A DNA stretch of 43,727 bases from Chloroflexota bacterium (GTDB taxonomy: Bacteria; Chloroflexota; Anaerolineae; Anaerolineales; Villigracilaceae), in NCBI GenBank assembly GCA_016866195.1, contig VGNF01000003.1, positions 1 through 43,727 on the forward strand. The letters run 5' to 3'. Below the pieces are notes generated by a model, which saw only the letters and a program-made list of their open reading frames with translations, had not been told where the DNA came from and did no database searches. A program made the translations under genes and the position numbers. Each line of letters begins with the position of its first letter. The stretch's first letter is position 1. Of the stretch, positions 25,376 through 36,467 are shown piece after piece.

Positions 25376-26839
25376 ATGACCACTCCCGATTGGGTCAAAG
25401 ACGCCATCTTCTATCAAATCTTTCCGGATCGGTTTGCGCGATCGAGCCGCAAGGCGGATATCGGATTTGAAGCCTGGGAGTCCCCGCCCACCCAAAACGG
25501 ATTTAAGGGGGGAGATCTGTTCGGCGTGATCGAAAAGCTGGATTATCTGCAAGACCTGGGGATCAACGCCCTCTATTTCAATCCGGTTTTCGCATCCGCC
25601 TGCAATCACCGCTATCACACCTACGATTATTACAATGTCGATCCCCTGCTCGGTGGCAATGATGCTTTAAAGGAGTTGGTGGATTCCGCTCACAAACGCG
25701 GCATTCGAATTCTTCTCGATGGAGTCTTTAATCACGCCAGCCGGGGATTTTGGCAGTTTCACCACGTCCTTGAGAATGGCGGTGGTTCCCCATACAAGGA
25801 TTGGTTCATTTTCGACGAGGAGCGGTTGCGCGGACACAAGCACTGGGGCGCTTATCCCACACCTCATGAGAGAAAGGCCTTACAGCATGAAGACAGCCTG
25901 ACTGCCATCGGATACCGCGCCTGGTGGAATCTGCCTGCCTTGCCCAAATTCAACACAAGAACACCGGCTGTCCGGGATTTCCTTTTCAGCGTGGCTGAAT
26001 TTTGGATCCGTTTTGGCATCGACGGCTGGCGCCTGGATGTGCCGGCTGAGATCGACGACGATGAGTTCTGGCGTGAATTCCGTCGAAGGATCCGGGCGGT
26101 CAATTCTGAGGCTTACATCGTGGGGGAAATCTGGCATGAAGCCAACCGTTGGCTGCAGGGCGATCAATTCGACGCGGTGATGAATTACCTGTTCACCGCC
26201 GCGGCGTTGGGATTTTTCGCCGGTTCACATCTTAATTTGCAGATGGTGTCACATGCCGGCGGGATCAAGGACCGCGTCCGGCGCATGCACGCACACGACT
26301 TCGCGAACGAAGTGGACCGGATCCTGAATCTTTACCCAAGGGAAATCACTTTTGCCCAATTCAACCTGCTCGACAGCCATGACATGCCGCGGTTTCTTTC
26401 ATGCGTTAATGGAGACAAAGCTTCGTTAAAGCTTGCCTGGCTGTTCCTGTTTACCATGCCCGGCGCGCCCTGTATTTATTACGGGGACGAGATTGGTATG
26501 GATGGCAGTCACGATCCGGATTGCCGCAAAGCCTTCCCTTGGGAGGTTTCAAAGTGGGATCAAGAACTCCGCGGGTATCTCAAGGCATGCATATTCATGC
26601 GGAAGGACCAGCCCGCGTTGCGCCACGGTGACTATCAACGAGTTCACGTTGAGGACGACCTGCTGGTGTACAACCGATCATCCAGCGAACATGAGGTCGT
26701 GGTCGCGATTAATGTGTCAAATGTCGAAAAGCAATTGCAATTGCCTTTCACTACCAAGGGCGAGATGATTTTCGGTAGCGGAAGTAAATCCGAGAACGGG
26801 TACTCTATTCCTCCGCGCAGCGGAATTGTTTTCCAATAA
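25376..26839 (+). CDS. GH13-family alpha-glucosidase/cyclomaltodextrinase/neopullulanase-like enzyme
   Basis: AIFYQIFPDRF, LLDGVFNHAS, DGWRLDVPAEI (nucleophile Asp), YIVGEIWHE (acid/base Glu), LLDSHDMPR. Confidence 0.92.
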   Translation: MTTPDWVKDAIFYQIFPDRFARSSRKADIGFEAWESPPTQNGFKGGDLFGVIEKLDYLQDLGINALYFNPVFASACNHRYHTYDYYNVDPLLGGNDALKELVDSAHKRGIRILLDGVFNHASRGFWQFHHVLENGGGSPYKDWFIFDEERLRGHKHWGAYPTPHERKALQHEDSLTAIGYRAWWNLPALPKFNTRTPAVRDFLFSVAEFWIRFGIDGWRLDVPAEIDDDEFWREFRRRIRAVNSEAYIVGEIWHEANRWLQGDQFDAVMNYLFTAAALGFFAGSHLNLQMVSHAGGIKDRVRRMHAHDFANEVDRILNLYPREITFAQFNLLDSHDMPRFLSCVNGDKASLKLAWLFLFTMPGAPCIYYGDEIGMDGSHDPDCRKAFPWEVSKWDQELRGYLKACIFMRKDQPALRHGDYQRVHVEDDLLVYNRSSSEHEVVVAINVSNVEKQLQLPFTTKGEMIFGSGSKSENGYSIPPRSGIVFQ

Positions 26840-26905
26840 GCCAGAGATAATCGAAATCAAATACAGATCGTTTGCTTTAGCGATCCGCCAAGGAGATCTT
26901 CGCCA

Positions 26906-29900
26906 ATGGACACCTCCCCCGAAATTCGATTGGCACGTGCGGCATATGGTTGGTTGAGAATTTCCCCGCTCTTGACCGGATTCACCTTTTTCCTCATCTG
27001 GGGAATGGACCCCGGTGGATTTGTTTGTGGGGAAATCGATTGTGCATATGGGGACTCCTTGTATTTCTCACTTCTGGCGGCGGTTTTAGGATCAGCCCTC
27101 TGGCATCTGATTCTGCTCCAATACCTCAATCACAAAACCAGTCAATTCGTTCGCAAGCACGGACGAAGCGCATTGCTGCTGGCAGGGTTTCGAACTTCCG
27201 TTCCCCTGGGATTACTCATCCTGGATTTTTTGGCAGATGCCAATGGATTGCTACTGGGCTGCACCGCGATCCCAATTCTGATCCTTCTGTGGGCTGTGAA
27301 TACCACCTCCGGCTACAAAGACATCAACCGAGAATTAGGTCTTCCACCTTCCGCAGGGAAGGAAACCGGTTCGAAAGAGAGCCCTGAGCTACTTCCCCAG
27401 ACTGCCATATCCCATCCGTCCTCCAATTCAAATGCGATTGATCGATCCGCCTCAAAACAAGCTCCAGAAGAGACTTTGACCAGAATCTTGAATGATCTGG
27501 ACCATGAATCGAATACCGTGCGAAGGCAGGCACTGGAGGAACTCGAATCATTGACCTTCGGCAGCGAAGCACTGCGTCGCAAGGTGGAGGCTCTGGCGCT
27601 GCACGAGGAGGATGAAACCCTCCGCCGGGCAGCGCTGGATGCATTGGGAAATTCGATGATGCGACATGTCCAGAGCCGCCTGAACAAGGTCAGTCGGGGC
27701 GATCGATACGTCCTGCTCCGCGAAATCGATGTATGGGAAAAACTGGATTACGTTACCCGATCTGTTGCGGAAGTCCTGCGGCGCCGTTATGATTTTGATT
27801 TCGCGCGAACCGAACCGTCGGTGAAACTTGTCCAGGTCCAGCCTCCGACTCCGGTCGATCGACCTGTTTCTCCAGCAAGACCCTCTCCCGCGCCCGCTGC
27901 CCCCTTGCCTGCCGCTTCCATCTCCACGCCCTCCATCAAGAAGCCCGAGCCAGCCGCACCGCGACCAACGCTCCTGCAGGCCTTGTTGAGCGAGACCAGC
28001 ATAAAAATCTATTTATATCTCGGGGCGTTTTTCGTCATCGCCTCGGCTGTGATATTAGGAACCCTTTTCGAGGCTGCCCGTCTGCCGATCTTGATTGCAG
28101 GGACGCTTTTATTTGGCGGCACAGCAGTCTCGATCCGTTCAAGGCTGCCTCAGCCCAGCTTCGCATTGTTCATAGTTTTTTCCTTTCTCCTGCCGATCAC
28201 TGCCAATGTAGCAGGAGAGTCGCTTAATCTGACCGCGCAAGGTCGAACCGCCTATTGGATGACCATTTACCTGGTCATGACCCTCCTATGGAGCGGAAGC
28301 ACATGGATTTATGAATCACGATTATTCAGCCTTTCCGCATTCCTCTCATTGCTCCTTGCTCTGTACCGCGCAGCCGATCTGGTTCAGGGACGAGCCGAGT
28401 TGCACACCTCGTTGATCGGAATGGCTGCACTGATTGGTCTTTTCGGCGTACGGAGATTAATCAAGTGGAAGAATTTCAAATTCAGTCTGCCGCTTTTCAT
28501 CACTGCCCAAATCACCCAATTATCGGCGGTGATCGCCGCCCTTTCCTTATTCCTCCTCAGGTTGGCAGAGGTGGATGATCAACCCCTTTGGCATGCGGTC
28601 TCGGTCCTAACCATTCTTGCCGCCTGTCAATTTTTCATCCTCTCGCACTCGACCGTTCCATTCTTCGCCTTCCCCTGGTTGGCAGCCGGAGTCCTGATCC
28701 CGCTCCCCTGGTTTGTGATTGCCACAAATGGAGAGAATCCCTTCCCAGGCAGCTGGCTGGCCACACTTACCTATACGATCTGGGCGCTGATCCTATCGGG
28801 CGCAAGTGAACCACTCTACAGCAAGAACAGATACCGCTCGTATAGCCTGCCTTCCCTTTTGGCATCAATCCCAATCTTCTCATTCGCGATCTTGAACAGC
28901 CTGCTCCATACGGATGCGCAAATCAGTAACCTATTGGTATTTGCAGTTTCACTGATCACAGCCGGGGTATTTGGGGGGATCCATGCAATCCGAAGGCGCG
29001 GCTGGTTATGGGCAATTTCACTTGCCTTTTTTGCCCTCGCCTATTTCTTCCTCCTCAACATTCAACCAATAAAGGTATGGAGCATTTACCACGGATTTGA
29101 AGTTCTTGGCTTGATCCTCCTATTCATGCTCCCAGATCTTCTGCTCAAGAAGGACTTCACTTCCGATCCACCTTGGAGGGTGCCACCCAGAATTTTCGGT
29201 GCAATCCTTTCCTTATGGGTATTTCTCCGATACTCGATGGTTCTGACTGATCAGTCCTTGAATTCAGGCATCTTGTTCGGTATTCTGGCTGTCGTATTCG
29301 CACTGTATTCCACGTCGTACCGGAAACCAGGAATCGGTTATGTGATAACGGTAAGCCTGGCAATCAGCGCCATCCACATTCTGCATTACATGGATCTGGA
29401 TTTGTGGTCTGAAACCTTATCGATCCTGGCGGTTCTCTACTATCTGATCGGATTCGCGATCCGAAGATATACGGCACACTCCGATTGGGGATCCATGTTT
29501 GCCATCAGCGGTCTTGCCTTGGGCAGCCTTACATCGATTGTGGCACTGTTCACCTTGAGACAAGGAGGCGGTTGGCTTATAGCTCTAACAGGAACTTTTT
29601 ACCTGTTCGAAATGCACGCGCGCAGAAGTGAATATCTTGAAATCGGCACTCATGTCCAAGTTCCCGCTGGAATATTTCTCCTGCTGAACGAAATCCTGCC
29701 CGATGAAATTGCCTATATCCTGCTCGGGTGGAGTATCTGCTGGCTGGGGATTGACGCTGTTCTATCAAAGACGTTCAAATCCGCCCGCCTGCTCGCACCT
29801 CCGGTTCGAATTGTCGGTTCACTGGCTACTCTTCTGGCGACCATGGTCTTACTGGCGGAGGGTGATTCAAGAGTATCTGCCATTTGCTTTGGTATCTACA

Positions 29901-31963
29901 CGGTATTTTTCGTTTTGTACACAGGACTTAAGCGGAGATCTATCTTCGGTTACCTGCCGGCATCTTTCCTGGCCCTCACGCTATTTTTTACGCTGGATCA
30001 CTCATCGATGGATATTTGGTTGCCCGCCCTTTCGGGTCTGGCGGCAGTCTACTTCCTGACTGGGTTCGGTCTCTCCCGCAAAGCAGATTGGTCCTACATG
30101 CTGCGCAATTCCTCCCTTGGATTGGGGGGAGTGCTCTCACTCGGCGCGTTGATCTCCCCCGGGATCCACAACGGATGGTACGTCGCCTTTATCGGCATCC
30201 TGTTCATTGTCGAAATGCATATCCGCAAACAAGCACTGTTCGAAATTGGACCTCAATTGCTGATCCCTGCTGCGGTCTGCCTGATTCTGGCTGACTTCAA
30301 GGTTTCTGATGAGGCTCTCATTCTGCTTGGCCTGAGCCTGACCTGGCTTTCCCTGGATCTTGTATTCGCACGGACTTTTGCAGGGCAGCGCAAGCGGTCG
30401 CTGGAGCAGTTGACGCAAATTGCAGGAGCGGGGACAGCATTATTCTCGACAGTCCTATTGATAGTAGAAAACGACCTTGCCAGGGCGTCGATCTGCTTCG
30501 CCATATTCACCGCTTTTTTCGCCCTCCATACGTTCATTCGGCGAAAACCAGTCTTTGCCTACCTGCCTCTTGCCTACCTTCCCATGACGATCTATTACAC
30601 CCTGGGATTTTTCGAAGTTGACGCCTGGCTGCCCTCCCTTACCATTTTGGCGATCATCTACTTCGTCGTCGGATTGGGGATCCGGCACAACCAAGACTGG
30701 TCCCTGACAATTCGGAATGGCGCACTGGTTCTCGGATCCATCCTATCCATCGGCGCGCTCCTGACCTTCAAACCGGGAGGGGGATGGTACGCGCTTCTGA
30801 TCGGACTCATCTTTGCCGTAGAAATGCATCTACGACGGAATGGCTGGCTGGAAGTGGGTGTGCCTGCAATGTTCAACATCGGCGCGTTCCTGATTCTGAC
30901 CGACTTCAAGATCAAGGAACCAACCTATCATCTACTGGCCTACAGCCTGGTCTGGATTCTCTCAGACCTGCTGGCCCACCTGACCTATGCGCAACCGAGG
31001 AGACTCAAATGGACCGTGCGAGGCATTGCTGCGGTGATCGCGGCGGTCAACTATGCGCTACTGATCATCAACGGCATCCGCGGTGAACCTGCCCCGGCGG
31101 CGTTATGTTTTGGGGTGTATTCGTTGGCATCCCTGCTGACCAGCCTCGGCTATCGTGAGCCAAAATTGATGTACACGTTTACTTCTTCCACCTCACTGTT
31201 TGGCGCGTTCCTTTTTCAAGTGTACGAAATGTCTAAATGGATCCATCCGGTTGTGACACTGGCAGTAATCTTCTACGCTGTGGGATATCTTCTACGCCGC
31301 GCCAGGCAGACCGGTGGCTGGGACATTCCACTTCGCTACAGCGGGCTTGGGCTGGGTTTGATCGTTTCGGCGGCAGCACCCGTTCTGGGAGGATTGGATG
31401 CAGCCATTCCCGTCGCATTGGCGGCGACGTTATGGGCTGTGGAGGCTTTTCATCACAAGAACGCCTGGTTGGGATTCCCCGCCAACGCCCTTTATTTGCT
31501 GGCATACTTCATCGTGCTTTTCGAATTACAGGTTGACGAAGTGCAATTCTTCTCCATGGGAGCCGCCTTGCTCGGTTTGATCCAACATTACCTGCTCAAC
31601 CGATCCGGGGCAAAGACCGGTGCATTTATCACCGGAATGGTTTCGCAGCTGATCTTGCTGGGGACTACATATATTCAAATGCTGAACACGGAGGAGTTGA
31701 TCTATTTCGTGGTGCTCTTCCTGCAATCGATCGCCGTTATGATCTATGGGATCGTCATCCGCTCGCGCAGCCTGACGTTTGCACCCATCGCCCTGGTGAT
31801 ACTGGGTGTGGTGACCGTGATCTACAGTGCGCTCAGGGATATCTCCACAGTGGTTCTGATCGGCTGTACCGGAATCATCCTCCTCGGCCTAGGTATACTA
31901 GCCGTGATCCTGCGTGAACGTATCACCAGGCTCGGAGAACGCCTAAGTTCCTGGGAAGCCTGA
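26906..31963 (+). CDS. Giant polytopic membrane protein with N-terminal HEAT-like region and tandem ~204-aa membrane modules
   Basis: 1685 aa; HEAT-like NTVRRQALEELESL...ETLRRAALDALGN, Pro/Ala-rich linker, then dozens of hydrophobic segments with recurring module motifs. Confidence 0.85.
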   Translation: MDTSPEIRLARAAYGWLRISPLLTGFTFFLIWGMDPGGFVCGEIDCAYGDSLYFSLLAAVLGSALWHLILLQYLNHKTSQFVRKHGRSALLLAGFRTSVPLGLLILDFLADANGLLLGCTAIPILILLWAVNTTSGYKDINRELGLPPSAGKETGSKESPELLPQTAISHPSSNSNAIDRSASKQAPEETLTRILNDLDHESNTVRRQALEELESLTFGSEALRRKVEALALHEEDETLRRAALDALGNSMMRHVQSRLNKVSRGDRYVLLREIDVWEKLDYVTRSVAEVLRRRYDFDFARTEPSVKLVQVQPPTPVDRPVSPARPSPAPAAPLPAASISTPSIKKPEPAAPRPTLLQALLSETSIKIYLYLGAFFVIASAVILGTLFEAARLPILIAGTLLFGGTAVSIRSRLPQPSFALFIVFSFLLPITANVAGESLNLTAQGRTAYWMTIYLVMTLLWSGSTWIYESRLFSLSAFLSLLLALYRAADLVQGRAELHTSLIGMAALIGLFGVRRLIKWKNFKFSLPLFITAQITQLSAVIAALSLFLLRLAEVDDQPLWHAVSVLTILAACQFFILSHSTVPFFAFPWLAAGVLIPLPWFVIATNGENPFPGSWLATLTYTIWALILSGASEPLYSKNRYRSYSLPSLLASIPIFSFAILNSLLHTDAQISNLLVFAVSLITAGVFGGIHAIRRRGWLWAISLAFFALAYFFLLNIQPIKVWSIYHGFEVLGLILLFMLPDLLLKKDFTSDPPWRVPPRIFGAILSLWVFLRYSMVLTDQSLNSGILFGILAVVFALYSTSYRKPGIGYVITVSLAISAIHILHYMDLDLWSETLSILAVLYYLIGFAIRRYTAHSDWGSMFAISGLALGSLTSIVALFTLRQGGGWLIALTGTFYLFEMHARRSEYLEIGTHVQVPAGIFLLLNEILPDEIAYILLGWSICWLGIDAVLSKTFKSARLLAPPVRIVGSLATLLATMVLLAEGDSRVSAICFGIYTVFFVLYTGLKRRSIFGYLPASFLALTLFFTLDHSSMDIWLPALSGLAAVYFLTGFGLSRKADWSYMLRNSSLGLGGVLSLGALISPGIHNGWYVAFIGILFIVEMHIRKQALFEIGPQLLIPAAVCLILADFKVSDEALILLGLSLTWLSLDLVFARTFAGQRKRSLEQLTQIAGAGTALFSTVLLIVENDLARASICFAIFTAFFALHTFIRRKPVFAYLPLAYLPMTIYYTLGFFEVDAWLPSLTILAIIYFVVGLGIRHNQDWSLTIRNGALVLGSILSIGALLTFKPGGGWYALLIGLIFAVEMHLRRNGWLEVGVPAMFNIGAFLILTDFKIKEPTYHLLAYSLVWILSDLLAHLTYAQPRRLKWTVRGIAAVIAAVNYALLIINGIRGEPAPAALCFGVYSLASLLTSLGYREPKLMYTFTSSTSLFGAFLFQVYEMSKWIHPVVTLAVIFYAVGYLLRRARQTGGWDIPLRYSGLGLGLIVSAAAPVLGGLDAAIPVALAATLWAVEAFHHKNAWLGFPANALYLLAYFIVLFELQVDEVQFFSMGAALLGLIQHYLLNRSGAKTGAFITGMVSQLILLGTTYIQMLNTEELIYFVVLFLQSIAVMIYGIVIRSRSLTFAPIALVILGVVTVIYSALRDISTVVLIGCTGIILLGLGILAVILRERITRLGERLSSWEA

Positions 31964-31976
31964 GCCCTCGGTTGGT

Positions 31977-32723
31977 TTACCGGCTTGCAGTATCGGCAAG
32001 TTTCTTCACAAGTTCAGGCAAAATCTCCCCGGACTTTCCCTGGAGAAAGTAATCCGCTTTCCCGGTCAGCTGTGTACATTCGGCGTTGATCTCCACGATT
32101 ACCGCGCCCTGATTATGCGCCGAGTAAGGTAGGGCAGCCGCCGGATGAACGACGCCGGAAGTGCCGATCGAGAAGAATACGCCGCATGATCGCGCTGCCT
32201 GAACAGCCTGCTCAAGCTGGGAACGCGGCAGAGGTTCTCCAAACCAGACCACATCCGGCCGAAGCAGTCCGCCGCAATCGACGCATCGAGGGACCTCCTG
32301 CGATTGCTCGTCCCAGGACTCGGCGAGGCATCCGCAATTCGAACATCTTACCCGCTGAATATTTCCGTGCAATTCCAGGATTTGCCTGCTCCCCGCCATC
32401 TGGTGCAATCCATCCACATTCTGTGTAATCAACGTGAAAGCGGAATTGCGTTTTTCCAACTCCACAAGTGCGTAATGACCGGCGTTCGGCCGTACTCCTT
32501 TGATGGCCTCCCTTCTCCATGCATACCAATCCCAGACAAGTTTGGGTTCGCGGGCGAATGCTTCGGGTGAGGCGAGATCCTGCGGCTTGTATTGTGCCCA
32601 GAGACCGGTTTGCGAGTCCCTGAAAGTGCGCAAGCCGCTTTCCTGGGATACACCCGCCCCGGTGAGAACCGCCATGCTTTGCGCGTTGGAAAGGAGGCGG
32701 ATCAGATCAGCAGGGAAATCCAT
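31977..32723 (-). CDS. Sir2-family NAD-dependent protein deacylase
   Basis: VLTGAGVSQESGLRTFRD, TQNVDGLHQMAGS, ELHGNIQRVRCSNCG...CVDCGGLLRPDVVWFGEPLP. Confidence 0.95.
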   Translation of the reverse strand: MDFPADLIRLLSNAQSMAVLTGAGVSQESGLRTFRDSQTGLWAQYKPQDLASPEAFAREPKLVWDWYAWRREAIKGVRPNAGHYALVELEKRNSAFTLITQNVDGLHQMAGSRQILELHGNIQRVRCSNCGCLAESWDEQSQEVPRCVDCGGLLRPDVVWFGEPLPRSQLEQAVQAARSCGVFFSIGTSGVVHPAAALPYSAHNQGAVIVEINAECTQLTGKADYFLQGKSGEILPELVKKLADTASR

Positions 32724-33418
32724 TATGGGGTTGGAACGGGAGTGGTTGTCACAGAAGGCGTGGCGGTAAAAGCGCAGTCAGAAAGGGTTAACCGTTCACG
32801 AAAAATGGCGGTCCGGCCGATTTCCCTATTCTTCGAATCCGTAGCCACAAACTGGTATTCCACCCACGCGTTGGTGAACAAGCTGACGGCTATCATCTCC
32901 TCGGCAGTCAATTCGTGATTGAATGTTCCTGCGCCGCGATTTTCCATGGTGATGTCGGTCCACTTACTGGTTGTCCCGCTTTGCTTGCTCTTAAAGCGGA
33001 CGAAAAGCACTACAAAGGCAGTTCCCGAAGCATTGGATGCCTGTGCCGTGAATTTCATTGAAATTGGCTCGCACGCCCCGGCTTTATAGAATACATCCCC
33101 CGCAGTAAAAGCCGCGATAAATCCCTGAAGGTCTACCGTTGGAGTCGAGGTGCCGGGAGTGACCGGCGTGGGCGGCAAGGTGGGTGAATAGTCCGGAGAT
33201 GGGGTCGCGGATTTGAATCCCACCAAGGTGGGCGTCAATGTAAAAGTTGGCGTCGCAACTGTCGGTGTGAAGGACGGAACTGGTGTGGGAACGAATGTTG
33301 GAGGGATTTGAATCGTTGGAGATTCCTGAACCAACGGTTCGGGAAAATAACCGCTCGGGTCAAATGAACAGGAACTGAGTATAAGTCCACACAAGATGAG
33401 AGCGGCAACTCGTTGCAT
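32723..33418 (-). CDS. Lipoprotein with Pro/Thr-rich stalk, paralogous to the upstream gene
   Basis: Start refined to 33418 (MQRVAALILCGLILSSC lipobox). Stalk TPTPV/PTFTLTPT; C-terminal FVVLFVRFKSKQ...WVEYQFVATDSKNREIGRTAIFRERLTLSDC. Confidence 0.7.
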   Translation of the reverse strand: MQRVAALILCGLILSSCSFDPSGYFPEPLVQESPTIQIPPTFVPTPVPSFTPTVATPTFTLTPTLVGFKSATPSPDYSPTLPPTPVTPGTSTPTVDLQGFIAAFTAGDVFYKAGACEPISMKFTAQASNASGTAFVVLFVRFKSKQSGTTSKWTDITMENRGAGTFNHELTAEEMIAVSLFTNAWVEYQFVATDSKNREIGRTAIFRERLTLSDCAFTATPSVTTTPVPTP

Positions 33419-33441
33419 GCAGCGATTGTCCCTTATATAAT

Positions 33442-34113
33442 TTACATACACGGAGAGAGGGAAATCGATTCGCGATAAATAGGTGTTCGCCCCACTTCCT
33501 CGCCATTCCAGCCGGTGGCAACCAATTGAAAGAACACCCAGGAGTCTTTGTAGTGATTATGACCCTCAATAGCGCTGCCGAGCAAGGTATAACTGAACCT
33601 GCCATCCAGATGATTATGCATGGCATCTCCGGTGGTCCAGGGTGTATAGTCTTCCTTCTTGGCGGATTTTACACGTACAAAAATTACCACACTGGCGACA
33701 TCCTCTGGTTCCAAGACTGTGGCCGTGACGAAGGCCTTGTTGTTCTTACAGGAACCCCAGAACATTTTATTGGGGGAAACGTTCACTGAAAGGAACCCCA
33801 CTCCCGGATCCTGTTTGGATGGATTCCCCAGTCCGCCCGGACCCAAAGTCTCACCCGGGGCGATGATCGGGATTGGTGGAAAGGTAGCCGTAGGTTGGTT
33901 GAAATCCTGGGTTGGGATGCGCACGACCGTTGCCGTGGGAGTATTGGTCCTGGTGGAGGTTGGTGTGGAGGTGATTGTCGGTCTTAACGTTCGGGTGGGA
34001 GTCGGTTCTGGAGTGGGGGTGATCGATGGCGGAAATAATTCTCCCACAAAGGGTATGCTGCTGCAAGATTGAACAAAGAAACCCAGGAGCAACAGAACTG
34101 CAACACGACGCAT
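33442..34113 (-). CDS. Lipoprotein with Pro/Thr-rich stalk and the same C-terminal domain
   Basis: MRRVAVLLLLGFFVQSC lipobox; TPTPEPTPTRTLRPTITSTPTSTRTNTPT stalk; VVIFVRVKSAKK...SWVFFQLVATGWNGEEVGRTPIYRESISLSPC. Confidence 0.72.
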   Translation of the reverse strand: MRRVAVLLLLGFFVQSCSSIPFVGELFPPSITPTPEPTPTRTLRPTITSTPTSTRTNTPTATVVRIPTQDFNQPTATFPPIPIIAPGETLGPGGLGNPSKQDPGVGFLSVNVSPNKMFWGSCKNNKAFVTATVLEPEDVASVVIFVRVKSAKKEDYTPWTTGDAMHNHLDGRFSYTLLGSAIEGHNHYKDSWVFFQLVATGWNGEEVGRTPIYRESISLSPCM

Positions 34114-35028: not shown

Positions 35029-35169
35029 CCCAATGCGAAGGCGATTTGTATACACCCATACGATTCACCGGACACGTCTTTGTCTGTTCAATTCAGCAAA
35101 CACGAACCCTCGGACCATCCATATCACCCAGCGGATGATATGCGATATTCTCGGCATCCCCGGAGAGCG

Positions 35170-36467
35170 ATGATTACGAGAAACCTGATATCGAAATCCG
35201 GGTTCCTGATTGCATTCCTGGTCGCCTTGACCGTGTACGGTTTCAGTGCCGGTTTGAAGATCACCAAGCAGTCACGCACCCCTCAATATGTGTACCTCGC
35301 CTATTCCCTTCTGAACGGCCACTTGGACCTGGTGGCATTTCCTGAAAGCAAGTTCGATCTGATCCATTATCAGGACAAATGGTATGTCCCCGGAGGCATA
35401 GGGCCTGCCCTGCTCCTACTACCATTCGTAGCCATCTTCGGGTATGGGATAAGCGACATCCTCTTCGGTGTAATCCTGGGAGCAATCAATGTCGCTCTGA
35501 TCTACCATTTACTTGGGAAAATGAAGCCGATCATCTCGTCGCAAATTTGGATCACGATCTTATTTGCCTTCGGCACGGTGCATTGGTGGATTTCAAGCGT
35601 GGGCTCGGTCTGGTTTAACGCCCATCTGGTCGCCTGCCTGTTTATGATCTTATATGTGAAGTCAACCATCGACGATCGACCATGGCTTGCCGGTCTATGC
35701 CTTGGCCTGGCTTCGCTTTCAGTCCACCGACGCTTTTTTCCGCGGTCTTCTTCATTGCATTTACCTATTTCCATAAACGGAATATCCGGCTTGCACTCAA
35801 TAAAATATTGCCCTTTGCCACAACTCTTGGCAGTATGATCCTTGTCATGCTGCTGGGCAATTACCTGCGATTCGGTAACTTCATGGATTTTGGGTACCTT
35901 TATGTACAGGGGACCAGGTCGCTAACCGATGCGTTTTCAAGCGGCGGTGGATTCAATCCCCGCTATATGCCCTGCAATATGTATGTCTCACTGATCGGTT
36001 TGCCCAATCTCTCCTGGAATCCCCTTCCGTCGGGGGATGACATGTGCCAGCACCTGGAACCGATCATTCACGATTTCACGGGATTGTCAGAATTTTTCAA
36101 TCCGCTGGGCATGAGCATCTTCCTGACCACTCCGGCGTTCCTGTTGATCTTTCGCGCCGGATTTCGTGAGCCCCTCGTCCAATCAGCCTGGTTGGGTATC
36201 CTTGCAACCATTACCGTCCTGTGGATGTACCACACCACAGGCTGGGTCCAATTTGGATATCGTTACACCCTGGATTTCATTGTATTCCTGATTCTTTTGT
36301 TGAGCCAATCGATAAAACGCATCGCATTTGTTGAAGTGATGTTGATTGGTTGTTCCGTTCTGCTTGGCGCTACCGGGGTGTATCTCATGTACTATATGAC
36401 CTTTGGAATTATTTGGTACGAGATGGCCTTGGAAATGCTTCACAAGATCTATTGGATCATTTTCTGA
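35170..36467 (+). pseudogene. Polytopic membrane glycosyltransferase-like gene interrupted by a frameshift near 35721
   Basis: Upstream frame ...LAGLCLGLASLS ends in VHRRFFPRSSSLHLP..., while the next frame continues SPPTLFSAVFFIAFTYFHKRN. Inserting one base after 35721 restores one hydrophobic protein (e.g. LSRPPTLFSAVFF). Confidence 0.75.

Follow-up and report, generated by a model that had tools for sequence, protein, structure and literature searches.

A giant polytopic membrane protein of Anaerolineales with tandem eight-helix modules, a candidate membrane-embedded solenoid

Many soluble proteins (HEAT, TPR, ankyrin) consist of open-ended arrays of tandem repeats. Polytopic membrane proteins usually carry no more than two or three internally duplicated copies. 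A literature search on intragenic duplication in polytopic proteins gave no result. The locus described here raises the question of whether a whole membrane domain has been copied repeatedly within one gene, how the copies arose, and what an array of this kind might do. It lies in a 43,727-nucleotide stretch of DNA from a Chloroflexota bacterium (contig VGNF01000003.1 of assembly GCA_016866195.1), here termed the window. The gene encodes 1685 residues from an ATG start; its coordinates and length were exact on re-reading (Table 1), the opposite strand carries many stops (one frame was translated), and a search of the genome returned no match besides the gene itself, which is single copy there. 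From its sequence, and from structure prediction of good model confidence, the product is nearly all membrane and includes a HEAT-like domain whose predicted location is the cytosol. In the models it has about 54 predicted transmembrane helices, 50 in one continuous array and four at the N-terminus.

Table 1. Features of the giant gene, its product and its immediate neighbours (window coordinates)
Feature	Coordinates	Strand	Basis
GH13 alpha-amylase-family gene, 66 bp upstream of giant gene	25376..26839	+	PF00128 E 6.8e-75
AGGAG Shine-Dalgarno sequence	26891..26895	+	10 nt before ATG; read directly
Giant polytopic membrane protein CDS (P0001)	26906..31963	+	Intact open homologous frames, 30-60% identity
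N-terminal four-helix part (aa 4-144), weakly DUF4870-like	26915..27337	+	AlphaFold2 model
HEAT/ARM-like helical domain (aa 187-295), predicted cytosolic	27464..27790	+	AlphaFold2: seven short helices
Pro/Ala-rich disordered linker (aa 303-345)	27812..27940	+	Sequence; pLDDT < 50
N-terminal membrane array of 15 helices in diverged four-helix units (aa 356-777)	27971..29236	+	AlphaFold2; loop charges
Degenerate module or half-module (aa 645-799) directly before array	28838..29302	+	z 4.8 against module 1
Module 1 (aa 800-1003), inner type, 8 TM helices	29303..29914	+	Self-match, HMM, tree, AlphaFold2
Module 2 (aa 1004-1206), inner type, 8 TM helices	29915..30523	+	Self-match, HMM, tree, AlphaFold2
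Module 3 (aa 1207-1410), 8 TM helices	30524..31135	+	HMM, tree, AlphaFold2
Module 4 (aa 1411-1612), conserved cap	31136..31741	+	Overlaps SCO7613_CTERM match aa 1501-1666
C-terminal tail, 73 aa, three helices	31742..31960	+	YG.VIRSRSL ... RERI...GER.SDW.A; alignment and AlphaFold2
Sir2-family gene, convergent, downstream	31977..32723	-	PF02146 E 9.6e-55

Modules, halves and predicted topology

A sequence-only reading of this DNA had described four like repeats of about 204 residues beginning at residues 800, 1004, 1207 and 1411, spaced by 204, 203 and 204 residues, and these positions are exact. Ungapped self-comparison gives its best off-diagonal signal at an offset of 203 (BLOSUM62 score 430, residues 961-1163), followed by offsets of 404, 201, 611 and 407. 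Local alignment scores are 327 for modules 1 and 2 (36% identity), 300 for 1 and 3 and 373 for 2 and 3; against the fourth module, modules 1, 2 and 3 score 146, 106 and 123. Control scores from 300 shuffles that preserved the pattern of hydrophobic, polar and other residues had means of about 40 and maxima of at most 87. Since every module pair lies at z 9.4 to 34 over these pattern-keeping shuffles, an internal similarity that goes no further than hydrophobicity is excluded. An HMM made from the four window modules also recovers full-length modules in homologues outside its training (i-E 1.5e-61 in L031), and self-alignment, module HMM, tree and AlphaFold2 model all agree on tandem polytopic modules. 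Two parts of the earlier description needed adjustment. Four copies are present, but the fourth is a diverged cap, 22-28% identical to modules 1-3, which lacks GGGW and has EAFHHK in place of EMH.R. The shorter divergent copy, for which a start at residue 637 had been suggested as possible, is real but weak: residues 645-798 align with module 1 at z 4.8, the HMM i-E is 3.5e-4 at 658-799, and a weak module-HMM match just before the array is present in most homologues.

Whole modules have been duplicated, as first proposed, but the primary repeat is shorter. A profile of 142 modules aligns with itself at a shift of about 101 columns (E 7e-6, against 0.04 for a reversed-profile control), and the homologue L048 (the same protein as L123) contains 100-residue half-modules at an exact 100-residue spacing with mutual identity of up to 56%. 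These two results make the elementary unit one of about 100 residues and four helices. By such sequence comparison the 204-residue module is two four-helix halves of about 100 residues each, and the 204-residue pair is the block usually duplicated. In L048/L123 five tandem four-helix half-modules occupy residues 633-1132, before the cap module; alternate copies are alike, and so are adjacent ones.

AlphaFold2 modelling of residues 790-1685 with 55 aligned sequences (pLDDT 89.6, pTM 0.66) gives exactly eight helices in all four modules, followed by the three-helix tail. In the model of the N-terminal 808 residues (pLDDT 86.6, pTM 0.65) four long helices come first, then a HEAT-like domain whose seven helices are short, then a disordered linker and finally 16 membrane helices. 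The last of these helices is common to both models, so that the continuous array numbers 50 helices. Loop charges alternate accordingly: over 49 loops, those that follow even helices have a K+R to D+E count of 54/12, and those that follow odd helices one of 14/35. This fits a topology in which all 50 array helices would cross the membrane and both the HEAT domain and the N-terminal side would be cytosolic; every external loop is short in the prediction.

The HEAT-like segment and Pro/Ala linker recognised earlier also hold up. HEAT_2 matches at E 2.4e-5, below the Pfam cut-off, in the giant protein and at E<=0.1 in 31 of 51 homologues, and in the PDB the domain matches alphaRep chains (E 9e-5). 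The four-helix part that precedes it is missing from most homologues, and its likeness to DUF4870 appears as matches of E 0.017 in an ORF of locus L051 and E 0.007 in one homologue, neither of them above cut-off. That ORF (L051:1890-2747, minus strand, 286 aa) resembles the four-helix part plus the HEAT region and adjoins a 1755-aa relative; because both pieces form a separate neighbouring ORF there, they occur fused as well as apart.

HEAT and SCO7613_CTERM were the only matches in whole-protein Pfam, NCBIfam and PDB searches, and the Pfam search assigned the protein no transmembrane domain; BcsF, Tim17 and the remaining whole-protein matches were sub-threshold and were discarded as chance. 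The array has no solved-structure match by sequence or by fold in the PDB and Foldseek searches. In Foldseek comparison with the PDB the best matches were full-length soluble helical-repeat solenoids, with TM-scores mostly of 0.2 or less, which would reflect repeated hairpin stacking rather than any known fold. A match to DdvA, a transmembrane anti-sigma factor (E 0.36-0.38, TM-score about 0.11-0.12), was likewise set aside as chance, and a literature search on it gave nothing.

Homologues and the history of the modules

Matches at E<=0.001 were found in 24 of 61 genomes (the window's own and 60 relatives), and a scan of 84,980 species genomes returned 74 loci, nearly all titled as Anaerolineales, Anaerolineae, Anaerolineaceae or Chloroflexi MAGs. 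The subfamily is patchy, since just 16 of 298 genomes of the same class match at that threshold. Comparison of repeat number, which the earlier reading had proposed as a check, shows that homologues do differ: among 67 distinct proteins the HMM recognised one module in 14, two in 28, three in 17 and four in eight, and total length rises in steps of about 204 residues. All 19 family members scored have a tail of 72-73 residues behind their last module. Four homologues (L106, L088, L068 and L071) are shortened or split over at least two frames, and may be pseudogenes or MAG errors; their frames were kept unaltered.

When 142 modules were placed in one tree, the final modules of 63 proteins fell on one side of a single branch with 100/100 support, pointing to a single origin of the cap. 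Module 3 of the window protein is orthologous to the penultimate module in close homologues. The other modules are mixed between positions (13 changes for the C2 label, 14 for C3), and within-gene sister pairs occur in L083, L076, L085, L031 and others, with modules 2 and 3 of L083 92% identical in DNA. From the single cap branch, the mixed inner modules and the within-gene pairs together it follows that a fixed cap has been kept as inner modules were gained and lost in place. Independent re-duplication of inner modules in several lineages is well supported by the sequences, as are the architecture and evolution of the family in general. The tree came with program warnings about long-branch joins and an unsettled bootstrap; the named within-gene pairs are short-branched and independent of those joins, and the long-branched modules of L033 are to be ignored in the tree. 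Many or most members come from draft MAGs, in which near-identical repeats are prone to mis-assembly, and two single-contig genomes (G007 and G164) carry multi-module genes too. An extra half module at first assigned to L083 (the same gene as L154) was dropped, as the two pieces at 864-1088 are one module.

Residue conservation separates the cap from the modules before it. Q1547, H1561, Y1562, R1566 and Q1581 are invariant in the cap, which also keeps N1527, Y1530 and Y1534, and inner modules carry different residues at the cap's conserved positions. Their own conserved set includes, in module-2 numbering, D1036, R1067, G1090, E1103, E1113, D1151 and R1164, with G1090, E1113 and D1151 conserved in inner modules only; several of the set sit at the cytosolic edge of their predicted helices. 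These patterns suggest that the cap has a special role and the inner modules a common one.

Candidate roles

What such a protein would be is answered here by a structural proposal, to which a probability of roughly 45% is assigned: a previously undescribed membrane-embedded alpha-helical solenoid of some 50 transmembrane helices, whose eight-helix blocks are added and removed as are TPR or HEAT repeats, giving it an adjustable length and a fixed cap. Consecutive four-helix units would pack next to one another and form an elongated or curved ribbon within the membrane, its length set by the number of modules. Specific or interacting roles would fall to the cap, where polar residues are invariant, and to the HEAT domain on the cytosolic side, and the inner modules, each keeping its E/E/D/R set at the cytosolic edge, would act as interchangeable spacer or binding units. 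Lipids or lysolipids might be held or organised in the grooves between units. The likeliest function, put forward tentatively and by analogy with Arc3A/DUF2339, is that of a scaffold in the cytoplasmic membrane that handles lipids or protects the membrane, rather than a single-pore channel or an enzyme. With a probability below one half, it is favoured over enzymatic activity, tension sensing and transport tied to the sugar operon.

The neighbourhood hints at carbohydrates rather than lipids and so counts against a lipid role. A plus-strand run in the window leads through genes for a ROK regulator, a substrate-binding protein, two permeases, an oxidoreductase, an ABC ATPase and the GH13 protein to the giant gene. 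Of 67 loci, 38 contain a GH13-family gene and 35 a Sir2-family gene. On this evidence the giant protein might serve the adjacent sugar operon as a transporter or flippase, moving alpha-glucan, maltodextrin or lipid-linked sugar, with each inner module, and its conserved charged residues, as a repeated transport path. That is unlikely, although it stands first among the alternatives. The protein has no transporter-family match and no PDB sequence match, import is already supplied by the ABC system, and a variable number of tandem whole transport domains would be unusual. The GH13 gene is not core to function, since almost all one-module members (13 of 14) lack it as a neighbour, and its synteny may reflect inherited gene order, as is shown by the Sir2 gene, a conserved neighbour that is not claimed as part of a system. 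The order GH13, giant gene, convergent Sir2 (window 25376-34113) recurs in divergent Anaerolineales, and tandem genes for Thr/Pro-rich putative lipoproteins often come next (23 of 67 loci). Further downstream in the window, overlapping membrane-protein-like ORFs of 252 and 261 aa in different frames (35080-36467) have the appearance of a single gene split by a frameshift or by an error in sequencing.

Somewhat less probable than the transporter is the idea that the array has no specific selected role, and that modules are gained and lost neutrally by recombination between repeats in what is otherwise a large membrane scaffold. Copy number does shift many times over the tree, with different modules involved. 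The modules nevertheless appear to be under constraint, because frames are intact at nearly all loci, the inner modules retain their conserved residue set, and length stays near 204 residues although copies are only 22-37% identical.

An enzyme that modifies a polymer or lipid, with its active site in the SCO7613_CTERM-like cap and the repeats as a substrate-lining channel, is improbable. It would suit the restriction of invariant polar residues to the cap and tail, and deletion of SCO7613 in Streptomyces lowers polyhydroxyalkanoate (PHA) (PMC8313934). The mutant still makes PHA, however, the assignment of SCO7613 as a PHA synthase is based on a lipase-box-like sequence, and its authors also raise a membrane-transport role (PMC8313934); no known catalytic motif or fold was found in the window protein. 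Least probable of all is a sensor or organiser of membrane tension or curvature with the HEAT-like domain as cytosolic output, for which four-helix units in series resemble the blades of PIEZO1 (38 transmembrane helices, nine four-helix units; PMC12712055) and a variable-length lever is easily imagined, but which finds no PIEZO match in sequence or fold, no pore-like module and no large extracellular cap among loops that are all short.

Comparison with known families

As judged by sequence, the sole detectable known relatives of this family are the SCO7613_CTERM proteins (NCBIfam NF047321), to which it is distantly related. The intragenic module duplication that had marked the gene out as novel stands, but the gene is not an orphan. 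The NF047321 cut-off of 45 bits is not reached by the window protein (24.7 bits at full length, 29.3 bits for the C-terminus alone); the model matches the C-termini of 19 of 19 family members (best E 2.2e-10). The module profile matches an SCO-type alignment at E 2e-7 and 2.5e-6 (reversed control 0.38), and a profile of the N-terminal membrane region matches Chloroflexota SCO7613-type proteins at E 5.7e-11. In both groups the C-terminal domain follows a long polytopic region, and the Chloroflexota members of SCO7613_CTERM are giants as well (982-2285 aa for the frames above cut-off), with a period of about 105 residues. The window protein differs in its near-exact 204-residue paired modules and its HEAT N-terminus, and its relatives have recent duplications. 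Three SCO7613_CTERM-type proteins of the same bacterial family (L143, L144 and L146; frames of 1948-2285 aa) are weakly periodic and probably have even more transmembrane helices. SCO7613_CTERM shares proteins with DUF2157 (PF09925) in some Chloroflexota, as in G120, where both are above cut-off; DUF2157 has no Pfam match in the window protein, and by profile it matches neither the modules nor the N-terminal region of that protein.

Likeness to PIEZO lies in the long one-chain series of four-helix units (PMC12712055). The window protein has no sequence or fold match to PIEZO and no pore or cap domain of the PIEZO kind; PIEZO is absent among the Foldseek matches listed, and the module array has no PDB sequence match.

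The comparison that informs the lipid-scaffold reading is with Arc3A of P. aeruginosa, a DUF2339 (PF10101) protein with 35 predicted transmembrane segments, a number that varies among its homologues (PMC8926400). Arc3A prevents the accumulation of lysophospholipids during phospholipase toxin attack, and its authors propose that the transmembrane segments may sequester lysolipids (PMC8926400). The window family resembles it in having very many transmembrane helices, whose number varies between homologues. DUF2339 has no Pfam match in the window protein, its homologues or genome G000, and by profile comparison it reaches E 9e-4 (probability 22%) with the N-terminal region and E 0.008 (probability 5%) with the modules, against 0.006 and 0.65 for reversed controls. 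The lipid role therefore rests on architectural analogy, homology to DUF2339 not being established by these sequence comparisons. Chloroflexota DUF2339 proteins (L181-L184) have an internal repeat of their own at about 115 columns (profile self-match E 2e-12), which could explain the varying transmembrane number of DUF2339/Arc3A-type proteins (PMC8926400).

Recent, independent, in-place gain of eight-helix blocks can be traced across one bacterial order, where proteins of one to four modules form a natural series for studying how a helix array is inserted, stacked and scaled in the membrane. The little-studied giant DUF families examined here, SCO7613 and DUF2339/Arc3A, have in common with this one a repeat plan of about 100-115 residues, which may help to explain why their number of transmembrane helices varies.
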